61,387 nt of DNA from Chloroflexota bacterium (GTDB lineage: Bacteria > Chloroflexota > Anaerolineae > Anaerolineales > VGOW01): positions 1 to 61,387 of the forward strand of contig VGOW01000018.1 in assembly GCA_016875735.1 (NCBI GenBank), given 5' to 3'. Below are positions 21,471 to 53,652 of this stretch, in pieces. Both the position numbers and the translations under genes were made by a program. A model generated the notes under the pieces. It was not told the DNA's origin, made no database searches, and saw only the letters and a list, made by a program, of their open reading frames with translations. How positions within the stretch are numbered: the stretch's first letter is position 1; each line of letters opens with the position of its first letter.

Positions 21471-22448
21471 TTATTGGCGAGCCTGCCGACGCGCCTCGCG
21501 GCGAGCCGCGCGCTCGTCCCGGGCCGCGTTCGCCGTCGCCGCCCGATCCGTTTGCGGGGCCGCCTTTTCGCCCGCGGCCCCGGCGTTGGTGGGCGCCGCC
21601 TCCGCCGCCCGCGCCCGCGCGTAATTCAACCACGCGCTGCAATTCTCGTCGTGGCCCATGAACACATCTCCGGCGAGAATCATTTTTCTGATCTCCGGCT
21701 CGATGGGATTGGTGATCGCGCAGGTCATCCCGGCGGCAATCGCCATGGCAATGAATGCGCCATTCAGAGTCGGGCGGTCGGGCAGGCCGAAGGAAATGTT
21801 CGACGCGCCACAGCACGTGTTCACGCCGAGCTCTTCGCGGCAGCGGCGCACGATTCTGAACAGCGACTGCCCGGCATACCGCACCGCGCCCACCGGCATC
21901 GCCAGCGGATCGATCAGCACATCCTCGCGCGGAATGCCGAAACTCTCTGCGCGCTCCACAATCTTTTTGGCAATGCCGAATCGCACATCCGGGTCTTCCG
22001 AGATTCCGGTTTCGTCGTTGGAGATGCCGATGACCGCCGCTTTGTATTTGGCAATGAGCGGCAGAACCGTCTCCAATCGTTCATCTTCGCCCGTCACCGA
22101 ATTGACCAGCGGCTTGCCCTTGTATGCCGCCAACCCGCATTCGAGGGCTTTGACGATGGACGAGTCGATGCACAGCGGCACATCGGTGATTGACTGCACG
22201 ATGCGAACGGTCTCGGCGAGGATGGCCGGCTCGTCGGCTAGCGGGATGCCGGCGTTGACATCGAGCATATGCGCTCCGGCCTCCACTTGAGCAAGGGCAT
22301 CTTTGCGCACGCGGTCGAAATTTCCGGCGGCCATTTCGGCGGCCAACAATTTGCGGCCGGTGGGGTTGATGCGTTCGCCGATGATCACGAACGGATGATC
22401 CGGCCCGATACGAACGGTTTGGGTGGGAGAGGTGATAACAGTTTCCAT
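21471..22448 (-). CDS. Methyltetrahydrofolate:corrinoid methyltransferase (AcsE/MtgA-like)
   Basis: A 325-residue protein with a pterin-binding TIM barrel: FVIIGERINPTGRK near residue 20, AHMLDVNAGIPLADE near residue 60, the substrate residues in NSVTGED, and CAITNPIEPEIRKM late in the barrel. This matches methyltransferases that move a methyl group between a corrinoid protein and tetrahydrofolate. Here it probably takes the methyl group from the methylated corrinoid protein encoded upstream in the run. The last 50 residues are an odd Ala/Arg/Glu-rich basic tail (ARDERAARREARRQARQ) beyond the normal end. Confidence 0.9.
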   Translation of the reverse strand: METVITSPTQTVRIGPDHPFVIIGERINPTGRKLLAAEMAAGNFDRVRKDALAQVEAGAHMLDVNAGIPLADEPAILAETVRIVQSITDVPLCIDSSIVKALECGLAAYKGKPLVNSVTGEDERLETVLPLIAKYKAAVIGISNDETGISEDPDVRFGIAKKIVERAESFGIPREDVLIDPLAMPVGAVRYAGQSLFRIVRRCREELGVNTCCGASNISFGLPDRPTLNGAFIAMAIAAGMTCAITNPIEPEIRKMILAGDVFMGHDENCSAWLNYARARAAEAAPTNAGAAGEKAAPQTDRAATANAARDERAARREARRQARQ

Positions 22449-22472: not shown

Positions 22473-22562
22473 GGATCGCGGATGGCGCGGATGGAGCAGA
22501 TTGGCGCGGATTAATTTCTAAAAATGATCCGCGAAAATCCGTTTGATTCGCGTCATCCGCGC
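22473..22562. repeat. Composite palindrome (CGCGGAT type)
   Basis: Several GCGGATGGCGCGGAT-like units on the left face ATCCGCGAAAATCCG and GCGTCATCCGC on the right. The right end overlaps the last codons of the metF-like gene: the repeat sequence CGCGGATGA supplies its stop. Confidence 0.75.
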
Positions 22563-23515
22563 ACCACGATTGACTCCGTCGATTCATTCTGCCAGCGGCG
22601 CGGGAGGAGCCCGGCCTCTTCGATGATCTCGGCCACAAGTTCCTCCTGCCGATAGGCCATCACGTGCACGCCGCTCACACCCGGTATCTCGTGCACTTGC
22701 TGAATGATCTCGATGCACAGTTTCTTGCCCTCGAGCATTTGCTTCTGCGCGCCTTTCATGCGATTCACGATCTCGTCGGGAATCCACACGCCGGGCACGT
22801 GGGCTCGCATCCATTCGGCGATCTTGGCCGAGCGCAGTGGCCCCACCCCGACGAGGATGAACGCTTTTTTGTCGAGGCCGAGATCGCGCACTTTGGCCAT
22901 GAACTCGCGCAAGCGCGGCAGGTCGAAGCAGTATTGAGTTTGGATGAACTCGGCTCCGGCTTCTATTTTTTTGCCGAGACGGTGCGGGCGGAAATCGTAC
23001 GGCGGGGCAAACGGGTTTTCGGCCGCCCCCACGAAGACTCGGGGCGGCACGTCGAGTTTGCGCCCGCTGAGGAAATGTCCGTCGTCGCGCATGATACGCA
23101 CGGTGCGCACGAGAGTCATCGAATCGAAATCGAATACCGGCTTGGCTTCGGGCTGGTCGCCGGCCTGGACTCCGTCGCCAGTGAGGCACAGCACGTTCTT
23201 CACGCCCATCGCCGCCGCGCCGAGCAAATCGCCCTGAATGGCGATGCGATTGCGGTCGCGGCACGAGATTTGATACACCGGCTCGTATCCGGCGCGGGTG
23301 AGCAAGGCGCAAATGCCCACGCTCGACATGTGGCAGTTCGCGCCCGAGGCGTCGGTGGCGTTAATGGCATCGCACACGGTGGAAAGCACGAGGGCGCGTT
23401 CGTACACCGATTGCGGGTCGGCGCTGTCGGGCGGGTTGAGTTCGGCGGTGACGGCGAAGCGGCCCGACTTGAGCACGCGTTCGAGTCGTGAGCCGGAGAC
23501 GAGGGGAGGGGTCAT
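22553..23515 (-). CDS. metF: Methylenetetrahydrofolate reductase (MetF-type)
   Basis: A 320-residue FAD enzyme of the MetF family: FAVTAELNPPDSADPQSV opens the barrel (Glu as the catalytic acid), QISCRDRNRIAIQGDLLGA, VLCLTGDGVQAGDQPEAK and GAEFIQTQYCFDLPRLREF all match. It interconverts methylene- and methyl-tetrahydrofolate; in this cluster the oxidative direction, from methyl-THF derived from methylated amines, is likely. A MetV-like partner is encoded just upstream, as in acetogens. Its stop codon is inside a repeat. Confidence 0.93.
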   Translation of the reverse strand: MTPPLVSGSRLERVLKSGRFAVTAELNPPDSADPQSVYERALVLSTVCDAINATDASGANCHMSSVGICALLTRAGYEPVYQISCRDRNRIAIQGDLLGAAAMGVKNVLCLTGDGVQAGDQPEAKPVFDFDSMTLVRTVRIMRDDGHFLSGRKLDVPPRVFVGAAENPFAPPYDFRPHRLGKKIEAGAEFIQTQYCFDLPRLREFMAKVRDLGLDKKAFILVGVGPLRSAKIAEWMRAHVPGVWIPDEIVNRMKGAQKQMLEGKKLCIEIIQQVHEIPGVSGVHVMAYRQEELVAEIIEEAGLLPRRWQNESTESIVVRG

Positions 23516-24652: not shown

Positions 24653-25226
24653 TCATCAATTCAACCAGCCGCGTTTCCAACGCGCCGAAGCCGGTGCGAT
24701 GCACTTCGAGCGGCAGGCGCAAATAGTCCGCCGCCCACTGCGCCCGCGCGCGCAGGTCGGGCGAGTCGGTTTGGGCGAGATAAACGGCGCGGGTGTAGTT
24801 GCCGAAGTAGTCGTCGCGCAATTGCGGAAATCGATCCAATCCCAATTCTTCGATGACAAGGTGATCGAACGACTGAACGAGATAATCGGTGAGGAAGAAG
24901 GTGCCGGGTTGCTGAGCCATCATCGACTCGAAGCGGCCATTGGCATACATCTCGAAACAGTGGGGGCCCGACACGCGCTGGACGCCTTCGGCTTCCAACA
25001 ACCGATCCAACTGCCCGCCCGTCCCGCAGTCGCCGTACACGACGATCACCTTCTCGCGCCGCGCCCGCGCCTCGGCGAGTCGTTCGCGCACCGCGTCCGG
25101 GATTCGGTCGGGGCGCATGTGCAGCAGTGACGGCACCCCGAACACATCGGCGTCCCAGCCGTGCGACTCTTTCATCGCCAACACTTCGCGGGCCAATGCG
25201 CCGCAGGCAATCAACGCGACTGTCAT
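24630..25226 (-). CDS. DUF1638 protein
   Basis: A 198-residue protein from the ATG at 25226, which overlaps the stop of the homocysteine-methyltransferase gene by ATGA. The family marks are MTVALIACGALAREVLAM at the start, VIVVYGDCGTGGQLDRLL, and GPHCFEMYANG. Three conserved cysteines (in IACGA, GDCGT, PHCFE) suggest metal or thiol chemistry. DUF1638 is regularly encoded beside methylamine/betaine corrinoid systems but has no proven activity. Here it is fixed in the operon between homocysteine methyltransferase and MetFV. Confidence 0.88.
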   Translation of the reverse strand: MTVALIACGALAREVLAMKESHGWDADVFGVPSLLHMRPDRIPDAVRERLAEARARREKVIVVYGDCGTGGQLDRLLEAEGVQRVSGPHCFEMYANGRFESMMAQQPGTFFLTDYLVQSFDHLVIEELGLDRFPQLRDDYFGNYTRAVYLAQTDSPDLRARAQWAADYLRLPLEVHRTGFGALETRLVELMSQNMAHR

Positions 25227-26116
25227 GCGCTCAACAACACATCGGCCATCGCCTTGAGATGCGCCGGAGTGCTGCCACAGCACGCGCCGATCACGCGCGC
25301 TCCGGCGTCACGAATCTGCGCCGCGTAGTCGGCCATCGCCTCGGGCTTGGCTTTGTACACCGCTTTGCCGTTCACCAATTCGGGCATGCCCGCGTTCGAT
25401 TTGGCGACGAGGATCGCATTCGGATCGGCGGCGCGCATCTTTTTGATCACCGCCAAAATTTCATCGGGGCCGTTGCCGCAGTTGCCGCCCACCGCCGCCG
25501 CGCCCAATCCGGCGAGCGCCTTTACCGCCTGTTCCGGCGACACGCCCATCATCGTATGCCCGCGAGTGTCGAAGGTCATCGTGGCGATGATCGGGATGTC
25601 GGGCGCGGCTTGGCGCGCGCCTTCGACGGCGGCCTGCATCTCTTCGAGCGCCGACATCGTTTCGATCCAGATCGCATCCACGCCGCCAGCGGCCAGCGCC
25701 GCCGTTTGCTCGGCGAACCCGTCTGCCGCATCGGCGTATTCGAGCGTGCCCAGCGGCGCAAGAATTTCTCCGCTCGGCCCAATGTCGCCGACGACGAGCG
25801 CGCCCGTTCCGGCGGCATCCACTTCGGCGCGCAGGATGATGGCCGCCGTGCGGTTGAGTTCGTTGACCCGCGATTGCAGGCTGTGCAGGCCGAGCCGGAA
25901 GCGGTTGCCGCCAAACGTGTTGGTGAGGATCAGTTTGGATCCGGCGTCGAGGTAACCGCGATGCACGGCGCGCACCCGATCGGGGTGAGCCACGTTCCAC
26001 GCTTCGGGCGGGTCGCCGAACACCAACCCGGCCTCGAACAGCATGGTGCCCATCGCGCCATCGGCCATGACGATTGATGATGACTCAAGAAGCGCTTGTA
26101 GTTTGTTCATCGCCAT
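25223..26116 (-). CDS. Homocysteine S-methyltransferase-like protein
   Basis: A 297-residue zinc-type methyltransferase barrel. The opening VMADGAMGTMLFEAGL, the zinc cysteine in VGGNCGNGPDEI and the Cys pair in VIGACCGSTPAHLKAM are the standard ligands. Family members methylate homocysteine with betaine, S-methylmethionine or a methyl-corrinoid. With the corrinoid protein encoded directly upstream, it may form a two-gene methionine synthase-like unit or demethylate betaine. ATG at 26110 is an equally good start (GGTGA eight bases before it). Confidence 0.88.
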   Translation of the reverse strand: MAMNKLQALLESSSIVMADGAMGTMLFEAGLVFGDPPEAWNVAHPDRVRAVHRGYLDAGSKLILTNTFGGNRFRLGLHSLQSRVNELNRTAAIILRAEVDAAGTGALVVGDIGPSGEILAPLGTLEYADAADGFAEQTAALAAGGVDAIWIETMSALEEMQAAVEGARQAAPDIPIIATMTFDTRGHTMMGVSPEQAVKALAGLGAAAVGGNCGNGPDEILAVIKKMRAADPNAILVAKSNAGMPELVNGKAVYKAKPEAMADYAAQIRDAGARVIGACCGSTPAHLKAMADVLLSA

Positions 26117-26118
26117 TT

Positions 26119-26187
26119 CACCGCAAAGGCGCAAAGAGCGCAAAGAACTCAAAAGACTCTTAGCGCGCTTCGCGCCTTCGCGGTTAG
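26119..26187. repeat. Composite palindrome (CGCAAAGGCGCAAAG type)
   Basis: ACCGCAAAGGCGCAAAGAGC on the left mirrors GCGCTTCGCGCCTTCGCGGT on the right. The right arm overlaps the stop codon of the corrinoid protein gene (TAA at 26184-26186 on the minus strand). Confidence 0.8.
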
Positions 26188-26870
26188 CTTTTGCTTCGTT
26201 TGATCGAGATCAACTTCTTCGCCGTTTCCACCGCCACGGCGGCGTCACGGCAATAGGCGTCGGCTTCGATCTCTTCGGCGAAGGCTTCGTTGAGCGGCGC
26301 GCCGCCGACGAGCACAATCACTTTATCGCGCAGGCCCTGCTCCTTCAACGCCTTGATCACCGTTTCCATATACGGCATCGTCGTGGTCAGCAGTGCGCTC
26401 ATGCCCACAATATCGGGCGTGTGCTCGCGCACGGCGCTGAGGAATTTGTCGGCGTCGTTGTTGATGCCGAGATTGACGACTTTGAAGCCCGCGCCCTCCA
26501 TCATCATTGCCACCAAATTTTTGCCGATGTCGTGAATGTCGCCCTTCACCGTGCCGATGATCATCGTGCCGATCTGCTGCGCGCCGGTTTCGGCCAACAG
26601 CGGGCGCAGAATTTCCATGCCCGCTTTCATCGCCTTCGCCGCCATCAACACTTCGGGCACGAACAGAATGCCGTCGCGAAAATCTGCGCCGACAATATCC
26701 ATGCCGCCCACGAGAGCTTTGGTCAGCACGTCGTACGGAGTCAGGCCGCGCCCGAGCAGTTCATTTGTGCCGGCCACCACTTCGTTGACCATGCCATCAT
26801 ACAGATCATCCTGCATCTGCTGAATGAGTTCATCGGTCGGAATGTTGCTGTAATCAAGTTCGTCGCTCAT
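26184..26870 (-). CDS. Corrinoid (B12-binding) methyl carrier protein
   Basis: A 228-residue MtbC/MttC-type protein starting at 26870 behind GAGGAAATTT. The N-terminal half is the helical cap (TDELIQQMQDDLYDGMVNEV ... GLTPYDVLTKALVGGMDIVG), and the C-terminal half is the cobalamin-binding Rossmann domain with the base-off ligand motif GDIHDIGKNLVAMM (His about residue 113), SALLTTTMPYM and VLVGGAPLN. It accepts the methyl group from the MttB-family enzyme and delivers it to the THF methyltransferase. Located between the activator and the homocysteine-methyltransferase genes. Confidence 0.95.
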   Translation of the reverse strand: MSDELDYSNIPTDELIQQMQDDLYDGMVNEVVAGTNELLGRGLTPYDVLTKALVGGMDIVGADFRDGILFVPEVLMAAKAMKAGMEILRPLLAETGAQQIGTMIIGTVKGDIHDIGKNLVAMMMEGAGFKVVNLGINNDADKFLSAVREHTPDIVGMSALLTTTMPYMETVIKALKEQGLRDKVIVLVGGAPLNEAFAEEIEADAYCRDAAVAVETAKKLISIKRSKS

Positions 26871-26886
26871 AAATTTCCTCTTTTGA

Positions 26887-26955
26887 TTCACGAAGTTGCG
26901 CGCAGAGGCGCGAAGGAAATAACATTCTTCGTGCGGCTTCGTGTTCCTTCGTGGA
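26887..26955. repeat. Composite palindrome (TTCACGAAG type)
   Basis: TTCACGAAGTTGCGCGCAGA and GCGCGAAGGAA on the left face TTCGTGCGGCTTCGTGTTCC and TTCGTGG on the right. It separates the activator and corrinoid protein genes. Confidence 0.7.
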
Positions 26956-26959
26956 AGAA

Positions 26960-28975
26960 TCAACTGGCAGGAGCCGTCACTGCTCGTCGCCGCTGGCTTC
27001 GGCGGCCATTGCCTCCGGCCGCCGGGCGTTGCGGAATCAAGCCCGCAAGATGCGGAAACGCATCGGCGGCGTGCGGCAGAGCCATCGCATTCACGAATTC
27101 GGTTTGGAAGTTTGCGTCGGTGGCCGTCTGCACATGCTGAACCCAGCGCGAAAGACGCAGGGCTTCGAGCCGCTGGCCTTTGTTGAGCAATGCGATGCGC
27201 GCGCCGTCGCCCGCCGCGTTGCCCACCGCCATCACTCGCTCGAGATCGCAATCGGGGATCAGTCCGAGAATCATCGCATACTTCGGATCGATGTAACTGC
27301 CGAACGCGCCCGCCAGCAACACTTTGTCCACCGCCGTCACGCCGCGATGGCGCATCAGCAGTTTAGTTCCGGCATACAGCGCGGCCTTCGCCAATTGAAT
27401 CGCGCGCACGTCGGTTTGCTTCACCACAATGGGTTGGCCGGTGGCCGTTTGCGATTCATCCACCAGCACATATTCGCCTGCCCGGCCATTGAACCGGATT
27501 CGCGGCGAACGCTCACCGCCGTTTTCGTCGAACCGCCCATCGGCGTCGGTGATGCCGGAGACGAACATTTCGGCGACGACTTCGATGATGCCACTGCCGC
27601 AAATGCCGGTGGCTCGCGCCGACTCTGGAATCGAATCGCTGGGAGCAATCCAATCATCGAAGCCGATCACTTTCCAGCGCGGCTCAAGTGTCAGCGGATC
27701 GATCCGCACGCGCTCGATGGCGCCCGGCGCGGCCCGCTGGCCGTGCGTGATCTGCGCCCCCTCGAAAGCCGGGCCGGTGGGCGACGAGGCGCACAACACC
27801 CCGTCGCGGTTGCCCAACACAATCTCGGCATTCGTTCCCACATCAATGATCAGTATCAATTCATCCTGCTGATGGGGCGCTTCGGCCAACTGCACAGCCA
27901 TGTTGTCTGCGCCGACGAAACCGGCGATGCACGGTAGAACGTGCACGCGCGCCGCCGGATGAAATTTGAGATTCAGATCGCGGGCCTTGAGGTCCACCGA
28001 CTCGGACACGGCGAGCGCGAACGGCGCGCCGCCGAGTTCCACCGGATCGATGCCGAGCAAAAGATGGTGCATCACCGGGTTGCCCACAAGCGCCGCATCC
28101 ATAATGTCGTCGGTAGTCAACCCCGCGCGCGCCGCCGCTTTGCCCGCCAACTCGTTGAGGGCAACAAGGATCGCCCGATGCATCCGCGCCAGGCCCTGCG
28201 GCTCCATCATGCAGTAACTCACGCGGCTCATCAAATCTTCGCCGTAGCGCACTTGCGGATTCATCGCCGCTTCGGTGGCCAGCACCGCGCCCGTTCGCAG
28301 ATCGCAGAGATGAAGCACAACGGTGGTGGAGCCGATGTCCACCGCAACCCCGTACGCGCCATCTTTGTAGCCCGGTTCCACGCGCAGAACTTCGCGGTCG
28401 TGCCACAGGGTGACGGTGGCTTTGTGTTTGCCCTGTTTGAGCGCCGGTTGCAGAGTCGGCAGCACAACGGAATCGATGGTGAGATTCGTGAGCGCCCACT
28501 GATCGGCGAGGGCTTTTTGCAGTCGCTCCCAATCGCCGCCGTGCGAGTCCATCGTCGGCTCTTCCACTTTGACATACACCCAGCGCACCGCCGGATCGAT
28601 CTCGATGGCGCGGTCGGTGGCGGCTTTGGCGATGATCTGTTTGCGCGCCTGACTCTCTTCGGGCACGGTGATCAAAAGGTCGCCGACGACTTGGCAGGCG
28701 CAGGCGAGTCGGCGCCCCGCGATGCCGTGTTCGGCCAGCCACGCGGCCTCGGCGGCGCTCATCGGAGTCAAATGGTTGGGCGCGGAGGCCAGTCCGTGCT
28801 TCGGAAAATTTCCCTCTTCGACCACAATCTGGCATTTGCCGCACGTCTGCCGCCCGCCGCAGATCGATTCGATCTCGACGCCCAACGCGCGCGCCGCATC
28901 GAGCAGGGCCGCGCCATGCGGCGCGTCTCCGCGCCGGCCGGAGGGCATGAGAGCAATGGTATGCGTTTCGCTCAT
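26960..28975 (-). CDS. Corrinoid protein reductive activator (RamA/DUF4445-like)
   Basis: A 671-residue ATP-dependent activator that re-reduces inactive Co(II) corrinoid to Co(I). I start at 28975 (MSETHTIALMPSGRRG). The N-terminal 2Fe-2S ferredoxin domain has SICGGRQTCGKCQIVVEEGN and a later LACACQV cysteine. Next is a linker, then an ASKHA-type ATPase domain with VAVDIGSTTVVLHL, LIIDVGTNAEIVLGN and TGICGSGIIEVVAEMF. The C-terminus ends in an Arg-rich stretch. It lies directly upstream of the corrinoid protein gene, its likely substrate. Confidence 0.93.
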   Translation of the reverse strand: MSETHTIALMPSGRRGDAPHGAALLDAARALGVEIESICGGRQTCGKCQIVVEEGNFPKHGLASAPNHLTPMSAAEAAWLAEHGIAGRRLACACQVVGDLLITVPEESQARKQIIAKAATDRAIEIDPAVRWVYVKVEEPTMDSHGGDWERLQKALADQWALTNLTIDSVVLPTLQPALKQGKHKATVTLWHDREVLRVEPGYKDGAYGVAVDIGSTTVVLHLCDLRTGAVLATEAAMNPQVRYGEDLMSRVSYCMMEPQGLARMHRAILVALNELAGKAAARAGLTTDDIMDAALVGNPVMHHLLLGIDPVELGGAPFALAVSESVDLKARDLNLKFHPAARVHVLPCIAGFVGADNMAVQLAEAPHQQDELILIIDVGTNAEIVLGNRDGVLCASSPTGPAFEGAQITHGQRAAPGAIERVRIDPLTLEPRWKVIGFDDWIAPSDSIPESARATGICGSGIIEVVAEMFVSGITDADGRFDENGGERSPRIRFNGRAGEYVLVDESQTATGQPIVVKQTDVRAIQLAKAALYAGTKLLMRHRGVTAVDKVLLAGAFGSYIDPKYAMILGLIPDCDLERVMAVGNAAGDGARIALLNKGQRLEALRLSRWVQHVQTATDANFQTEFVNAMALPHAADAFPHLAGLIPQRPAAGGNGRRSQRRRAVTAPAS

Positions 28976-29012
28976 GAGTGAGCGCAATTATACGCGAGCG
29001 AGGAGGGAGGGG

Positions 29013-30674
29013 CTACGGGCGCGGGGACAAGGTTTGAGCGAGGAGGTTGTGCGATGAATACAACCTCCACCCCTTCAACGCCACGTGCAAATTCAAACGC
29101 TGCCCGGCGTCTTTCAAATCCACCCCCGCAATCGACTCGATGCGCCCCAAGCGATACAACAGCGTGTTCCGGTGAACATTGATCGCCGCCGCCGCTTCGG
29201 CCAGCGCCCCGCCGAATTCTAAATACGCCTCCAGCGTCTTCACCAAATCGCTGTTGCTCTTCGCATCGTGCTCGGCCAGCGCGCGCACCTTCGCCAAAAA
29301 CACATTCCCGCTCATCGCCTCCGGCGGCAAACGATACAACCAATCGAGCAGGCCCAGCGCCCAATAGCACGTCACCTTCGCCGCGCCCAACCGCGCGCCC
29401 ACCTCTACCGCCTCCACCGCTTCATCGTACGCGGGGCGCAGGCCGTTGGCGCGCGCCGCGCTCACACCCGCTTGCAGTGGAAACGCCGCATGGCCGATCT
29501 CATTCACGATCCGCTCGGCCAATTCGCGCCCGGCCTCGTTAGAATTTGAGTCGATGATCAGCGCCACACCGCGCTCGCGCCCCACCACCAAACCCCACAC
29601 CTCAATCCCCCGCAGCCACGACTCCAGCCGTGAAGCCAACTGCCCAACCGACCCGCCAGCCGGTGGGGCGCCGACGACGAACAGCACTTGATGAGCCCTA
29701 TCCAAGTGATACCCCGCCGATCTCGCCCGCTCGACCGTCGCCCCGTCGTATTCGTTCGGAGGCCGCAACAACTGCGTGAGCAGATCGCCGCGCATGGTTT
29801 GCTGCGACTCGCGCACGGCCTGCTCTTTCATCAGCGCCAACGCCGCCACCGTCGCCGCATGATCAATGGCGATCTCGTCGAGCTCCGTCAGCGGGTGATC
29901 TCCGGCCACGATCCAAATATAGCCCAGCGCCTCCCCGCCCGACACAATCGGCGCAACCACCCGCTCCATCCACATCCCAATATCGGGCATCGTGCCCAAC
30001 CGGATCGGGCGCTTCGCTTTTTGCAGCTGCGCGTACACGCCGCGCTTGCGGAGTCGGTAAGCCACCTCCACCGGAGTCCGCCCCACTTCAATCGTCCGCA
30101 AACGACTCTCGTCCACCGGGCCGTGCTGAGTCGACGCCAGCACTTCATGCGTCGGGCTTTCGATCAGAATCGAGCGCTCCAAAATATCGGCCAGCGTCGC
30201 CGTGATGGCGGAGAGATCGCCCCCATCCAAAACCAACTGGGTGAGGCGGCGGTGAATCTCATTGGCTCGTTCGCGCAGAGCCAACTGCTCGTTCAATATC
30301 TCGGCGTACAGCCGTTCGATGATGTACACGAACTGCACATCGGGCGGCACTTCGATGATGGGGAAGTTGTGGGCATTGGCCGCCGCGCGCATCACCTCCG
30401 GCGACGACTGGAAATACCATCCGGTGCTGAACACCAGCCCGGCCACACCGTGTTTGACCAGCGCGGGGATGTACTCGGCTTGTTGCGCGAGATCGTCTTT
30501 GATTCCGTACCCTGCGGTGAACAGCAACAGCCCCGCCGCCCACTCCGGGTAATCGGTGCCCGGAATATCCACCACGTGCGCCCGGCGAATGGTGTTATCG
30601 AGTCCGCCCTCCCCCGCCACCACCTTCGCTTTGGCGAACACCGGCAACTTGAGCGCTTGTCGCAGAGTGAGCAT
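29013..30674 (-). CDS. PucR-family transcriptional regulator
   Basis: A 553-residue regulator from the ATG at 30674. The N-terminal PucR domain begins LTLRQALKLPVFAKAKVVAG and includes VDIPGTDYPEWAAGLLLFT; a GAF/CdaR-like middle domain follows; and the C-terminus has the helix-turn-helix LAEAAAAINVHRNTLLYRLGRIE. Such proteins activate purine, amino acid or amine catabolism. Placed between the Sec-DsbA-like gene and the activator gene, it is the obvious candidate to control the corrinoid methyltransferase operon in response to substrate. Confidence 0.93.
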   Translation of the reverse strand: MLTLRQALKLPVFAKAKVVAGEGGLDNTIRRAHVVDIPGTDYPEWAAGLLLFTAGYGIKDDLAQQAEYIPALVKHGVAGLVFSTGWYFQSSPEVMRAAANAHNFPIIEVPPDVQFVYIIERLYAEILNEQLALRERANEIHRRLTQLVLDGGDLSAITATLADILERSILIESPTHEVLASTQHGPVDESRLRTIEVGRTPVEVAYRLRKRGVYAQLQKAKRPIRLGTMPDIGMWMERVVAPIVSGGEALGYIWIVAGDHPLTELDEIAIDHAATVAALALMKEQAVRESQQTMRGDLLTQLLRPPNEYDGATVERARSAGYHLDRAHQVLFVVGAPPAGGSVGQLASRLESWLRGIEVWGLVVGRERGVALIIDSNSNEAGRELAERIVNEIGHAAFPLQAGVSAARANGLRPAYDEAVEAVEVGARLGAAKVTCYWALGLLDWLYRLPPEAMSGNVFLAKVRALAEHDAKSNSDLVKTLEAYLEFGGALAEAAAAINVHRNTLLYRLGRIESIAGVDLKDAGQRLNLHVALKGWRLYSSHNLLAQTLSPRP

Positions 30675-30722
30675 GACGCGATTATAGACGAAAGACGGCA
30701 ATCGTCCCGCGTCAATCCCCCG

Positions 30723-31343
30723 TTATTCGATCAGCCCTTCGTCAATGCACTTATCCACCACCTGCTCCAGCACACTGGTCGGCCTCGCGCCGCTCACCAA
30801 ATACCGATCCCCGAAGATGAACGCCGGGACGCCGTTAATGCCGATCTCGCGCGCCAACATTAGATCCATCTCCACCTCGACTCGATACTTGCGCCCGACC
30901 ACAGCCTCGCGGAAGCCGTCACTGTATAACCCCACCGATGTCGCAATCCCGGCCAACGTTTCAATGTCGTCGAGTCGCTGTCCCTTTTGCCACTGCGCGG
31001 AGAAACAAGCGCGATTGTACTCGTCGAGTTTGTCGTGCGCGCGCGCGAACCATGATCCTTCATGCGCCATGCGCGAGTTCACACCCCACGGCGCATCCAT
31101 ACTCATCTCGACGCCGAAGTTGTCGTGGGCATAGTCAATCACCGGCGCGTCGGCCCGCCGGACTTTCTCCCGGTAACGGGCTTCTTCTTCGGGCGTGCCG
31201 GGGAACTTGCCGCCGGGGCGCAGTTCAAATGCGCGCCACTCCACGATCACATCCCGCGACTTCTTGAGCGACTCCAGACCGGACTCGGCGAGGAAACACC
31301 ACGGTCAAACATAATCGCTGAAGACTTGAATCTTGACTGGCAT
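30723..31343 (-). CDS. DsbA/FrnE-like selenoprotein with U-P-W-C active site
   Basis: Reading from the ATG at 31343 gives MPVKIQVFSDYV, then an in-frame TGA (31307-31305), then PWCFLAESGLESLKKSRDV and on to the stop at 30723: 206 residues. In FrnE-like DsbA proteins this spot reads SDYVCPWCYLG, so TGA replaces the first Cys of CPWC and is best read as selenocysteine 13. The rest is a typical thioredoxin-fold oxidoreductase: helical insert (NRACFSAQWQKGQRLDDIETL), cis-Pro loop GINGVPAFIFGDRYLVSGAR. A hairpin with loop GGUCU starts 18 bases after the TGA. No signal peptide, so it acts in the cytoplasm. It lies between mttB and pucR. Confidence 0.85.
31269..31287 (-). promoter_or_regulatory. Candidate bacterial SECIS hairpin of the DsbA-like gene
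   Basis: On the minus strand the stem CGAGTCC / GGAGTCG (one G-G mismatch) closes the loop GGTCT (31280-31276). The loop begins 24 bases after the TGA, within the window used by bacterial SECIS elements, and has the same GGUCU sequence as the formate dehydrogenase element at 51943. Confidence 0.65.
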
Positions 31344-31351
31344 ATATTTTT

Positions 31352-31427
31352 CTTCCACGAAGGGCGCGAAGGCGCAGAAAGGAAAGAGCGAAATCGCTTT
31401 ATGCATTTTCGTGTAGCTTCGCGGAAA
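31352..31427. repeat. Composite palindrome (TTCCACGAAGGGCG type)
   Basis: CTTCCACGAAGGGCGCGAAG on the left mirrors TTTTCGTGTAGCTTCGCGGAA on the right in imperfect form. It fills the gap between mttB and the DsbA-like gene and ends two bases before the mttB stop codon. Confidence 0.7.
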
Positions 31428-31428
31428 A

Positions 31429-33027
31429 CTAATCCTTCCATTCCGTTCGCGGTCTGCCCTCCCGTAATTCTTTCCGCCTCTGCTCCACAAACGCATTCAA
31501 CTCCTCGGCAATCGCCGGATCGAGCGGCGGTTGTTCGTAATCCTTCAACATCTTTTTCCACACGGCGTTGGCGCGGGCATACGTGTCCGGCTTTCCTTCC
31601 ACTTCCCACTTCTCATAATTATCCATATTGAAAACTTTGTGTTGATAGAACGCGGTGTCGTAATGGCGCATCGTGTGAGTCGCGCCGAGGAAATGGCCGC
31701 CCGGCGGAATCTCGTCGTACGCATCCCACGCGAAGTCCTCGTCGGTGAGGCCAACTCCGTTGACGTACCGGGCCATCATCGCGCACATCTCCAGATCGAT
31801 CACGAACTTTTCGTAGCCGGAAATCAATCCGCCCTCGAGCCAGCCCGCCGCGTGCAAAACAAAATTGACTCCGGCCTGCACGGTGGGCCAAATGGTGCTG
31901 GCCGATTCGTATCCGGCTTGCGCATCGGGAATGCGCGAGGCGGTGAAGTTGCCGCCGCTGCGATACGGCAGGCCGTAGCGACGGGCCATCTGCGCCCCGG
32001 CGAAGAGAGCCAACGCATCTTCGGGCGTGCCGAAGCACGGAGCGCCACTGCGCATATCAATGTTGGCAAGGAACGAGCCGTACACGCACGGCGTGCCCGG
32101 GTTGAGCATTTGCGCGTAACAGATGCCGAATAGGGCTTCGGCGTTTTGCTGGGCAAGCGTGGCCGCCATGGTGCTGGGCGACATCGCCCCGGCGATGAGA
32201 AACGGCGTGACCAACACTGCCTGCTTTGCCTTCGCATACACTTCGAGAGCGCCAAACATGCGATCATCGAACCGGAGCGGGCTGGAGGCATTGATGAGCG
32301 AGAAGATGCCCGGACTCTGTTGAATGGCCTCATCGCCGAGAAGGATACGGGCCATCGTCACCGTGTCCCGCGCGTTGTCGGCGTGAGTGACACTGCCCAT
32401 GAAACACTTGTCGCTCAGCGTGATGTGCGCCATGAGCATATCGAGGTGGCGCTCCTTCACGTCAACATCATTCGGCTCACAGAGCGTGCCGCCGTTGTGG
32501 TGCAGAGGCTCGGCCATGTAGGTAAGTTTAGCGAAGTTGTGAAAATCTTCGAGCGTGGCACGGCGGCGGCCAAAATCGATGCTGCCCACGAAGGGCGGCC
32601 CGTACACCGGAGCAAAGATGGTGTCGCGTCCGCCGAAGGCAAGGCTGTTCTGCGGGTTGCGCGCAAGTTGAGTGAATGTGGATGGCGCGAGTCGGATGAA
32701 GTTCAACAACATATCTTCATCCATCTTCACCAAATGGCCGCGCACTTGAACCGTGTCGCCGTTGGGGTACACGGCCTCTTTCTCGACCCATTCGACCTTC
32801 GCGCCGTGCTGACGAAAGGTCTCTGCGGCGGGCGGATAATCCACGATGAGGATGCCGGTGTTTTTGAGCAAGCGCATCGAGGCGGCGTGAATCTTTTCCA
32901 CGCCTTCGGGCGAGAGCACTTCGGCCAGAGGCAGTTTGTTTTCGAGCGGCTTCACACCAGCGGCGCGGGCCGAGGCCCCCGGGCGGCGGCCTTCGCGGCG
33001 GCGCTGTCGGCGATCTTGATCGGTCAT
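31429..33027 (-). CDS. mttB: MttB-family (non-pyrrolysine) methylamine/betaine methyltransferase
   Basis: A 532-residue protein of the trimethylamine methyltransferase superfamily. I start at 33027 (MTDQDRRQRRREGRRPG); an Arg-rich leader of about 40 residues precedes the conserved LSPEGVEKIHAASMRLLKNTG. Other marks are GVGLTDEDFAWDAYDEIPPGGHFLGATHTMRHYDTAFYQ in outline near the end. The frame has no amber codon, so it lacks pyrrolysine; such members demethylate glycine betaine, proline betaine, carnitine or related compounds. It is the first gene of the long minus-strand corrinoid cluster, with the corrinoid protein, activator and THF methyltransferase downstream. Confidence 0.93.
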   Translation of the reverse strand: MTDQDRRQRRREGRRPGASARAAGVKPLENKLPLAEVLSPEGVEKIHAASMRLLKNTGILIVDYPPAAETFRQHGAKVEWVEKEAVYPNGDTVQVRGHLVKMDEDMLLNFIRLAPSTFTQLARNPQNSLAFGGRDTIFAPVYGPPFVGSIDFGRRRATLEDFHNFAKLTYMAEPLHHNGGTLCEPNDVDVKERHLDMLMAHITLSDKCFMGSVTHADNARDTVTMARILLGDEAIQQSPGIFSLINASSPLRFDDRMFGALEVYAKAKQAVLVTPFLIAGAMSPSTMAATLAQQNAEALFGICYAQMLNPGTPCVYGSFLANIDMRSGAPCFGTPEDALALFAGAQMARRYGLPYRSGGNFTASRIPDAQAGYESASTIWPTVQAGVNFVLHAAGWLEGGLISGYEKFVIDLEMCAMMARYVNGVGLTDEDFAWDAYDEIPPGGHFLGATHTMRHYDTAFYQHKVFNMDNYEKWEVEGKPDTYARANAVWKKMLKDYEQPPLDPAIAEELNAFVEQRRKELREGRPRTEWKD

Positions 33028-33144
33028 GAGTGGCGGCATCCTTTCGATTCGATGATCGGGCAGAGTGTAATGTATCCCGAAAGGCGCGGCAAGGTGAGCC
33101 GACACAACGAAACGGGCGCAGGTGTGTGCGCACGTCACAAGATT

Positions 33145-33170
33145 CGTAGGGGCGACCACCTGCCCCTACG
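33145..33170. repeat. GTAGGGGC hairpin at a kinase 3' end
   Basis: CGTAGGGGC (33145-33153) pairs with GCCCCTACG (33162-33170), loop of eight. The TAG in the right arm (minus strand) is the stop codon of the histidine kinase gene. Confidence 0.75.
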
Positions 33171-49925: not shown

Positions 49926-50810
49926 ATGGAAACGAATACGCTTGACTCACTTCTTCCCGCCGAGATGGCCGCCCGCGCCGAGCAGATCGGCGTGCGCAAG
50001 GCCAACTTGCGATGGGACAACATGTTTGCCCTTTCCGTGTTGGCCGGCTCGTTCATTTCGTTGGGAGCGATCTTTTCCACCACCGTCAGCGCCGGGAGCA
50101 TGATCATCAGCGCCGCCGACGGCGCGTCGGTGTATAGCGCCAGCCTGCCCTACGGAGTCACACGCCTGTTGGCCGGGCTGGTGTTCACCCTCGGCCTCAT
50201 TCTGGTCGTCGTCGGCGGGGCAGAACTGTTCACCGGCAACAATCTTATCGTCATGGCGTGGGCCAGCGGCAAAGTGAGCACCGCCCTCGTGCTCAAGAAC
50301 TGGATCATCGTCTATCTCGGCAATTTCGCCGGGGCGTTCGCCACTGCCGTGCTCATGTTCTTCACCCAGCAGTACACCTTCGGCAGCGGCTCGGTGGGGG
50401 TAGTGGCGCTTGCCACCGCCAATGCTAAAGCCGGGCTGGGCTTTTGGCAAGCCCTCGCTCTGGGCATCATGTGCAATGCCCTCGTCTGCCTCGCCGTATG
50501 GATGTCTTTCAGCGCCCGCACCACCACCGACCGCATCCTCGCCATCATCCCGCCCATCACCGCTTTTGTGGCCGCCGGGTTCGAGCACAGCATTGCCAAC
50601 ATGTATTTCATCCCCATCGGCCTGTTCATCAAAGCCGGAGCCGACGCCTCTTTCTGGGAAAAGATTCACTCCTCCGCCGACAAATTTGCCAACCTCACGT
50701 GGGGCCACTTCTTCGTCAACAATCTCATCCCCGTCACGCTCGGCAACATCATCGGCGGCGCGGTGCTGGTGGGCATTGTGTATTGGGCAGTGTATCTGCG
50801 AAAGAGGTAA
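49926..50810 (+). CDS. Formate/nitrite transporter (FocA-like)
   Basis: A 294-residue FNT-family channel with six transmembrane segments. Family marks: LAGSFISLGAIFSTT, GGAELFTGNNLIVMAW, NWIIVYLGNFAGAFATAVLM and FEHSIANMYFIPIGLFIKA, the last with the central His used for proton relay. The formate dehydrogenase gene starts ten bases after its stop, which points to formate rather than nitrite. Confidence 0.94.
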   Translation: METNTLDSLLPAEMAARAEQIGVRKANLRWDNMFALSVLAGSFISLGAIFSTTVSAGSMIISAADGASVYSASLPYGVTRLLAGLVFTLGLILVVVGGAELFTGNNLIVMAWASGKVSTALVLKNWIIVYLGNFAGAFATAVLMFFTQQYTFGSGSVGVVALATANAKAGLGFWQALALGIMCNALVCLAVWMSFSARTTTDRILAIIPPITAFVAAGFEHSIANMYFIPIGLFIKAGADASFWEKIHSSADKFANLTWGHFFVNNLIPVTLGNIIGGAVLVGIVYWAVYLRKR

Positions 50811-50820
50811 AGGTGCGCTG

Positions 50821-53652
50821 ATGCCGATCACCCTCACCATCAACGACCGACCCATCGAAGCCGTTGCCGGGCAAACGATTCTGGAAGCCGCCCGCGCCAA
50901 CGGCATCGTCATTCCCACCCTCTGTTATCATCCCGCCCTGCCCATCGTCGGCTCGTGCCGCTTGTGCATTGTGGAAGTCGAAGGCGCGCGCACGCCGCAA
51001 GCCGCCTGCGGGCTGGTGGCGCGAGAAGGCATGATCGTCCGCACCGAAACGCCCGCGCTGGCCCGCGACCGCCGCACCATTCTCGAACTTCTCCTCGCCA
51101 ACTACCGCGACGCCGAATACACCGCCGCCGACCGCGACGACACCGAATTCGAACATTGGGTCAAACTCTACGGCGCGCAATGCCCGCCCGGATCAACGCC
51201 GCGCCCTCAGCGCAAAGTCAACAGCGATCCCAACCCGTTTGTGTGGGTGGACATGAACAAGTGCATCCTCTGCACTCGCTGTGTGCGAGCCTGCGCCGAC
51301 GTGCAGGGGCGCTTCGTGTGGCGGCCCAACGGGCGCGGCGCGCGCACCGACATCGTCGCCGGGCTGGAAACGACGATGCTCGAAGCGCGGTGCGAATCGT
51401 GCGGGGCCTGCGCCGCCTTCTGCCCCACCGGCGCGCTCGACAACAAAATGTCGGTGGATGCTGGCAAGCCCGACAAGAAAGTGACGACGACTTGCGCCTA
51501 TTGCGGAGTCGGCTGCCAATTCGACCTCAACGTGAAAGGCAACCGTATCATCCGCGTGACGTCGACTCCGAATGCGCCCGTCAACGGAATGCGCCTGTGC
51601 GTGAAGGGGCGCTATGGCTACGACTTCGCGCATCACCCGGATCGGTTGAAGAGGCCGAGAGTGAGAAAGTATCTGCTGGAAACTCCAAACTCCAAACATC
51701 AAATTCCAAAATCCAGCCTGCAATCGGAATGGGTTGAGGTGGATTGGGACACCGCCTTCGACATCACCGCCCGCAAACTGCGCGAGGCGCGCGACACGTT
51801 TGGCCCCGACAGCGTGGGCGTGCTCACTTCGGCCAAATGCCTCAACGAAGAAAATTATTTGATGAACAAGTTCGCCCGGCAAGTGATCGGGACGAACAAC
51901 ATCGATCACTGCGCCCGGCTTTGACACTCCAGCACCGTCGCCGGTCTGGCGGCTTCCTTCGGTTCGGGCGCAATGAGCAACTCGATGGATGATGTGGCCG
52001 ACTATGCTCGTGCCATGCTCATCATCGGATCGAACACCACCGAACAGCACCCGGTCTTCGGGGCAATGATTCGGCAGGCCGTGTTGAAGCGCGGAGTCAA
52101 ATTGGTGCTGGCCGATCCGCGCCGCATCGACATCGCCGAGTTTGCGGCGCTTCATCTCCGGCAGAGGCCGGGAACGGATGTTGCGCTGATCAACGGGCTG
52201 ATGCGCATCATTTTGGAGAAGGGCTGGGAAGACCAAAAGTTTATCGAGCAACGCACCGAGGGTTTCGAGGAATTCAGAACGACCGTGATGCAGTATCCGC
52301 CGGAGAAGGTTGCGGAGATCACCGGCGTGCCGACGGCCTCGTTGCATAAGGCCGCCGAGATTCTGGCGACGAACAAACCGATGGCGGTGATGTGGGCGAT
52401 GGGTATCACTCAGCACATCGTCGGTGTTCGCAACGTGATGGATCTCGCCAACCTGCAAATGCTGTTGGGCAACATGGGCGTTCCCGGCGGCGGCGTCAAT
52501 CCACTGCGCGGCCAGAACAACGTACAGGGCGCGTGCGACATGGGCGGCCTGCCGAATGTGTATCCCGGTTATCAGCCGGTGACGGACGCGGCGGCGCGAG
52601 AAAAATTTGCGAAGGCATGGGGCTTGGCAAAGGATGAAGGCGGAAGGATGAAGGATGAATCCTTCGCCCTTTCCGGCAAAGTGGGAATGACCGTCACCGA
52701 GATGATCCCGGCGGCGGGCGAGGGCAAAGTGAAGGCGCTGTACATTCTCGGCGAAGACCCGGTGATGAGCGACCCCGACACGAATCACATTCGCCACTGC
52801 CTCGAGGCGTGCGACTTCGTCGTCGTGCAAGAAATCTTCCCCTCCGAGACCGCGCAATACGCCGACGTGCTTCTGCCCGGCGTGACCTTCGCCGAAAAGA
52901 CCGGCACGTTCACGAACACCGAGCGCCGAATCCAAATGTGCCGCAAGGCCATCGAGCCGGAAGGCGAAGCGAGGGAAGATTGGTGGATCACAGCGGAGTT
53001 GGCGAAGCGGGTGTTGGCAGGTGGCAATCTCCAATCACCAATCTCTGACGCTCCGTATGCAGGCTGGAACTACGAGAACACCGCCGAGATCATGAAAGAG
53101 ATCGCGGCGCTCACGCCGAGTTACGCGGGTGTGAGCCACGAGCGGATTGAAAAGGGCGAGCGATTGCAGTGGCCGGTGAAGGGCGCCGATCATCCGGGGA
53201 CGCCGATTCTGCACGTGGGCGCATTCCCGCGCGGCAAAGGCAAGTTCGCGCCCGTCGAACACCTCCCGCCCGCCGAACTGCCCGACGACGACTACCCGAT
53301 GATCCTCAGCACCGGGCGCGTGCTGTATCACTGGCACGGCGGCGAGATGACGCGGCGGGCGAAAGGGCTGATGGAAATTTACGGTCAGTCGCTCGTGGAG
53401 TTGAACCCGGAGGACGCAGAACGTCTCGGCCTCAACGGGAATCGGCGGGTGCGGATCACCTCGCGGCGCGGGGCGATGGAGGCCGAAGCGTGGGTGACTG
53501 ACCGTGTGCCGCCGGGCATGGTGTACGCCAACTTCCACTTCCCCGAAGCGCCGGCCAACGAGTTGACGATTGCCGCGCTCGACCCCGTGTCGAAGATTCC
53601 GGAGTACAAAGTGTGCGCGGTGAGGGTGGAGAGGGTGGGTGGTAATCAGTGA
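50821..53652 (+). CDS. fdhA: Selenocysteine-containing formate dehydrogenase, NuoG-like N-terminus
   Basis: The frame runs from 50821 to 53652 (943 residues) with one in-frame TGA at 51922-51924, in NIDHCARL-U-HSSTVAGLAAS, exactly where Mo/W formate dehydrogenases carry Sec or Cys at the metal. Domains in order: 2Fe-2S (CYHPALPIVGSCRLCIVEVE), two 4Fe-4S (CILCTRCVRACADV, CESCGACAAFCPTGAL), the catalytic-domain cluster (CAYCGVGCQFDLNV), and the molybdopterin domains (LLGNMGVPGGGVNPLRGQNN). Three stretches are encoded by microsatellite repeats: residues about 287-299, 603-614 and 734-742. The last residues and stop are also repeat-like. Oxidises formate to CO2; no NuoEF-type partners are adjacent. 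Confidence 0.95.
51679..51717. repeat. AACTCCAAACTCC microsatellite inside fdhA
   Basis: GAAACTCCAAACTCCAAACA followed by TCAAATTCCAAAATCCAG is of the same type as the hairpin after the tRNA gene at 60488. It is read as ETPNSKHQIPKSS between the iron-sulfur and molybdopterin domains. Confidence 0.65.
51937..51953 (+). promoter_or_regulatory. Bacterial SECIS hairpin of fdhA
   Basis: GTCGCC (51937-51942) pairs with GGCGGC (51948-51953), including one G-U, around the loop GGTCT (51943-51947). The loop begins 18 bases after the TGA. From memory, E. coli fdhF has the same loop sequence and spacing. It would recruit SelB to insert selenocysteine. Confidence 0.85.
52629..52664. repeat. AAGGATGAAGG microsatellite inside fdhA
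   Basis: AAAGGATGAAGGCGGAAGGA followed by TGAAGGATGAATCCTTCG: three AAGGATGAA-type units plus an inverted TCCTTC, read in frame as KDEGGRMKDESF. This interrupts the alignment of the domain after VTDAAAREKFAKAWG. Confidence 0.6.
53021..53048. repeat. CAATCTCCAATCACC microsatellite inside fdhA
   Basis: GGCAATCTCCAATCACCAAT followed by CTCTGACG is read in frame as GNLQSPISD. Reverse-strand copies of the unit (GTAATCAGTGATCAGTAATT) lie at the gene's end at 53642. Confidence 0.5.

Follow-up and report, generated by a model that had tools for sequence, protein, structure and literature searches.

A predicted FrnE-like selenoprotein of Chloroflexota and its corrinoid methyl-transfer neighbourhood

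DsbA-like UxxC selenoproteins, in which selenocysteine (Sec) occupies the first position of the CxxC active site, were reported in 2005 and assigned to COG2761 (PMC1088965). DsbA UxxC forms were described again in 2008 as 'DsbA 1' (PMC2398784), and in a 2026 review they stand as 'DsbA-like form 1', PF01323 (PMC13188914). The FrnE protein of Deinococcus radiodurans is described as a cytosolic disulfide reductase/isomerase, and its mutant shows heightened sensitivity to cadmium and diamide (PMC8945050).

Here we describe a frnE-like gene from a Chloroflexota genome. We refer to the whole stretch of DNA that was analysed, 61,387 nucleotides of contig VGOW01000018.1, as the window. The gene very probably encodes a Sec-containing cytosolic thiol-disulfide oxidoreductase of the DsbA/FrnE family, with Sec inserted by way of SelB and an mRNA hairpin. 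It belongs to the already described DsbA-like UxxC selenoproteins. In the open-licence literature, we found no description of a class-wide Sec form of this protein or of its position next to mttB.

The frnE-like gene and its in-frame TGA

The gene lies on the minus strand (30723..31343) and encodes 206 residues when its TGA is read through. Translation starts at the ATG at 31343, meets a single TGA at 31307-31305 (feature 31305..31307, minus strand) as residue 13, and ends at a stop codon whose last base is 30723. From the ATG, the frame reads MPVKIQVFSDYV-TGA-PWCFLAESG..., so the TGA stands where CPWC has its first Cys and the active site becomes UPWC (Sec13, Cys16). The preliminary description had placed the frame, the TGA and the CPWC position at these same coordinates, and all of them hold in the sequence and its translation. 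It had also proposed that the protein lacks a signal peptide; by inspection, the residues directly after the start Met include no hydrophobic leader. The Pfam DSBA profile (PF01323) matches residues 5-194, on both sides of the TGA, with 107 bits against a gathering cut-off of 25.6. The product therefore combines the two features expected of a DsbA-like UxxC selenoprotein, namely a UxxC motif, here UPWC, and a PF01323 match above the gathering cut-off.

We surveyed 396 genomes of the class, 74 of which carried a frnE homolog at an E-value of 1e-20 or better. When position 13 was inspected codon by codon, TGA was found in 65 loci from 64 genomes, all with intact frames, including the gene of a congener that is 64% identical to the window gene. 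Cys occupied this position in ten homologs, eight of them class loci (E 1e-20) and two of them named relatives recovered in a separate search. Neither TAA nor TAG occurred at position 13 among the homologs checked in this manner, and one truncated locus did not cover the position. The in-frame UGA thus aligns with a Cys in other homologs and is kept from species to species, as is typical of selenoproteins. A wider draw of the phylum, reaching beyond the class, yielded more homologs that contain a single TGA somewhere inside the gene. When close relatives were sought in named genomes, only two forms emerged, both with Cys, and the named record closest in protein sequence is a Cys form from an Anaerolineales genome (42% identity). 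Judged by these codons, FrnE is mostly a selenoprotein in the class (64 TGA genomes versus 8 Cys loci at E 1e-20).

Standard ORF calling of frnE recovers 30723-31250 alone. The default annotation begins at GTG 31250, as had been anticipated, and the active site is lost. This is also what would be seen if the TGA were a nonsense mutation or a sequencing error, leaving either a pseudogene or a truncated protein that starts at GTG 31250 and has no active site. Such an origin is extremely improbable for a codon that recurs in 64 genomes, the 64%-identical congener among them, that is followed by a SECIS element conserved in relatives, and that is found in a genome equipped with the Sec machinery (see below). 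The removal of the active site by standard annotation affects dozens of relatives in the same way, which makes Sec-FrnE a caution for automatic annotation.

SECIS hairpin and selenocysteine machinery

The preliminary description had also pointed to a hairpin with a GGUCU loop after the TGA. This hairpin is present at 31287-31269, and a bSECIS-pattern scan of the window recovers it as a bacterial SECIS element (31269..31287, minus strand; CGAgUCC-GGUCU-GGAgUCG) with a loop at 31280-31276 that begins 24 nt after the UGA. Its stem consists of three pairs and a loop-closing G-U pair, followed by one G-G mismatch and then three more pairs. In the 2026 review, the bSECIS model comprises a loop of 3-9 nt, a G in the first two loop positions and a spacing of 16-37 nt (PMC13188914). 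Our test required in addition an upper stem of 4 or more bp, and the frnE hairpin, with GGUCU at 24 nt, has all of these properties.

Folding the frnE sequence by itself gives no advantage over shuffled sequences (z -0.96), and it is the comparison among homologs that supports the hairpin. The textbook element of the formate dehydrogenase gene in the same window is likewise not significant when folded on its own (z 0.21), and single-sequence folding is uninformative as a SECIS test. The comparison covered the 48-member subgroup that contains the window gene, with 500 synonymous-codon shuffles. All 48 homologs have a loop of the form (A/G)GU(U/C)U. Counted from the UGA, bases 25-29 read AGUUU in 33 of them, AGUCU in 12 and GGUCU in 3, the window gene being one of the last. 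The Ser codon AGT, rare elsewhere in these genes, is used at the loop in 45 of the 48. At the four inner stem pairs, 97% of cells are paired, compared with a mean of 58% and a maximum of 68% in the shuffles, and all four pairs form in 90% of the sequences versus 9% expected. Compensatory changes are also seen, and three of these four pairs show double exchanges. The SECIS loop is absent from the Cys homologs. The folding energy of a 48-nt segment differs only weakly from that of synonymous shuffles (mean z -0.75), since the signal resides in a small local hairpin, for which the local tests are clear.

A second Sec-FrnE subgroup (n=16; L119, L120, L124, L127-L131, L134, L135, L137-L140, L142 and L143) is marked by VGQGVV after UPWCY. 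About as far from the UGA, its members display a different and stronger SECIS-like hairpin that hardly varies, GUCGGCCA-GGGUG-UGGUCGAC.

The source genome (G000; 4.15 Mb, 97.8% complete) encodes SelA (452 bits), SelB (350 bits) and SelD (383 bits, itself with one in-frame TGA), as well as a tRNA-Sec with the anticodon TCA. The search for Sec genes proposed in the preliminary description thus found selA, selB, selD and tRNA-Sec all present. Each of the three DSBA-profile genes of this genome carries a single TGA, always at the same codon of the active site, which reads FSDYV-U-PWC, FSDFQ-U-PFC and FSDFQ-U-PFC, respectively. The two UPFC proteins (L002, G000:C55, and L003, G000:C7) are membrane-anchored, with the first Cys replaced by TGA.

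The window contains a second selenoprotein gene, which encodes the formate dehydrogenase alpha subunit FdhA (50410-53652, plus strand). Its TGA (51922-51924) falls between positions 128 and 130 of the TIGR01591 profile in the motif RLUHSSTVAGL, a textbook Sec site, and is followed by a hairpin whose GGUCU loop begins 18 nt after the TGA. ORF calling splits FdhA in two, and a formate/nitrite transporter gene (49926-50810) is located just upstream.

An in-frame TGA alone does not name the residue that it specifies, and a change of code or simple read-through could place an amino acid other than Sec at residue 13. We give this hardly any credence, since the TGA stands at the position of a redox Cys, the genome has a tRNA-Sec with a TCA anticodon together with SelA, SelB and SelD, the SECIS has the bacterial consensus loop, and FdhA in the same window carries the classic RLUHSSTVAGL. 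Collectively, the Sec machinery, the TGA shared by 64 genomes and the congener, and the covarying SECIS strongly support the claim that frnE encodes a selenoprotein.

In a tree of the homologs, Cys forms are scattered or nested among Sec forms. For instance, the Cys form L123 adjoins the Sec form L118 (from G055), and the genome of L123 (G083) has no SelA match. The placement of Cys forms among Sec forms and the lack of a SelA match in the L123 genome suggest that Sec probably reverted to Cys there and that the machinery was lost. About eight TGA-form genomes also have no SelA match at 1e-40 (read by eye), several of them being incomplete drafts. SelA is found in 317/396 genomes of the class, and for that reason a class-wide comparison of SelA with the TGA form has little power. 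The FrnE proteins of this class are a good model for SECIS function and Sec-to-Cys reversion.

The corrinoid methyl-transfer neighbourhood

As the preliminary description had stated, mttB and pucR flank frnE; the three genes share the minus strand. The mttB gene (31429..33159) encodes an MttB-superfamily methyltransferase (PF06253, 666 bits) with an open frame free of internal stops and hence of a pyrrolysine codon, and pucR (29013..30701) a PucR-type transcription regulator (PF07905, PF13556). These are followed on the same strand by a RACo/AcsV-type corrinoid reductive activator (26960..28987; PF14574 with 306 bits, PF17651; AcsV model 403 bits, below cut-off) and an MtgC-like corrinoid (B12-binding) protein (26184..27251; PF02310, PF02607; MtgC model 212 bits, below cut-off), whose true start is probably downstream of the ORF start. 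Next are a homocysteine S-methyltransferase of the betaine-homocysteine type (25223..26152; PF02574; NF005718 348 bits, cut-off 338), a methylenetetrahydrofolate reductase-like protein (MTHFR; 22553..23515; PF02219) and a pterin-binding methyltransferase of the methyl-THF type (21471..22448; PF00809). Together, these genes form a genuine locus of corrinoid methyl transfer.

The gap between mttB and frnE (31344-31428) contains a CTTCGCG-like repeat motif, which by eye seems to be present in other gaps of the genome, such as at L002. In-frame TGAs in mttB homologs were considered as Sec codons and rejected, being C-terminal stops in the five loci checked.

The preliminary description had suggested a low-potential selenol redox partner for corrinoid or methyl-transfer chemistry. 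In a dedicated role of this sort, FrnE would either maintain MttB, the corrinoid protein or RACo in reduced form or take part directly in methyl transfer. The proposal draws on the position of frnE between mttB and pucR in a one-strand series with RACo, the corrinoid protein, the homocysteine methyltransferase, MTHFR and the pterin methyltransferase, and on the congener (G340), in which one mttB (84% identical) precedes frnE and another follows it. However, the 19 other frnE loci examined in the class have no mttB homolog within up to about 9 kb on each side, and none lies near the UPWC homologs of other genera. Seen from the other gene, FrnE homologs occur within about 1.5 kb of only 2 of 30 mttB loci, both from the congeners, and in G340 mttB and frnE are separated by two short ORFs, at least one of which is a nucleotidyltransferase. 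Moreover, the activator known for corrinoid proteins of this type is RACo rather than a dithiol protein. We consider such a partner role unlikely.

Among the 30 mttB loci, some do retain MTHFR, corrinoid or pterin-methyltransferase neighbours. The nucleotidyltransferase gene and the other short ORF of G340 (locus L055, 8045-9002) are perhaps an inserted toxin-antitoxin-type pair.

Thus, the corrinoid cluster itself and the proximity of mttB to frnE in the congener stand, while the proposed partnership is weakly supported, its gene pairing being absent beyond the genus. Linkage across genera was not observed, mttB and frnE being linked in G000 and G340 only. Because the pairing is limited to the genus, a special role of frnE in the corrinoid pathway is possible but unsupported. 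A narrower version, in which FrnE was recruited within this genus to work solely as the selenol reductant of the MttB/corrinoid/RACo methyl-transfer system, strikes us as decidedly unlikely. If true, it would represent a Sec-dependent thiol redox partner, a kind not known for MttB/corrinoid/RACo systems. Such a link, if real, would matter more, but the evidence for it is thin.

Protein family, proposed reaction and relation to known systems

Among solved structures, the best sequence match is D. radiodurans FrnE (phmmer E 1.7e-19, residues 3-191). FrnE structures (5cnw, 5cp1) are also the best fold match (TM about 0.81, E 4e-13) of a structural model of modest quality, which was built from three sequences and has pLDDT <50 around the active site. 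Folds of GST-kappa and HCCA isomerase match this model too (TM about 0.7), and the protein might on that account be a DSBA-clan enzyme of such a type instead of a disulfide reductase or isomerase. This is very unlikely, as the FrnE structures fit better, the sequence match is far stronger for FrnE than for HCCA isomerase (E 1.7e-19 versus 0.003), and the UxxC dyad is retained.

The FrnE assignment agrees with the whole-length similarity, the CP(W/F)C-type site and the lack of an N-terminal hydrophobic segment, all of which characterise the FrnE subfamily. A C-terminal CXXXXC motif was not found in the window protein, which has one Cys, C199, near the C-terminus. Many FrnE proteins have this motif, but some lack it too (PMC8945050), hence its absence does not decide membership.

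We infer the decoding from sequence features, as the genome has SelA, SelB, SelD and tRNA-Sec and both the UGA and the SECIS are conserved. SelB would bind the hairpin, whose loop begins 24 nt after the UGA, and bring Sec-tRNA-Sec, and Sec would be placed at residue 13 of UPWC. By analogy with these families, the Sec13 selenolate would attack a substrate disulfide, and the mixed selenylsulfide would be resolved by Cys16. Thioredoxin, a low-molecular-weight thiol or another cellular reductant may then reduce the resulting Sec13-Cys16 bond again, so that on balance cytosolic disulfides would be reduced or isomerised. As to the exact function, we lean towards cytosolic disulfide reduction or isomerisation, on analogy with what is reported for Deinococcus FrnE.

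Three described systems can be compared with this locus. With the non-pyrrolysine MttB-superfamily clusters of the MtgB/MtgC type (PMC8604678), it shares neighbours, namely an MttB without internal stop, an MtgC-like corrinoid protein and RACo. In contrast, frnE is no known part of such systems, and its adjacency here is limited to the genus. With the DsbA-like UxxC selenoproteins, it shares PF01323, Sec at the first CxxC position and a bacterial SECIS just after the UGA, a likeness at the level of description. The passages searched in those publications mention neither a Chloroflexota-wide set nor an mttB neighbourhood. Finally, the window protein and D. radiodurans FrnE are both cytosolic DsbA-family proteins with a CP(W/F)C-type site and are alike in sequence and fold over their whole length, but the window protein is without the C-terminal CXXXXC and has Sec in place of the first Cys.
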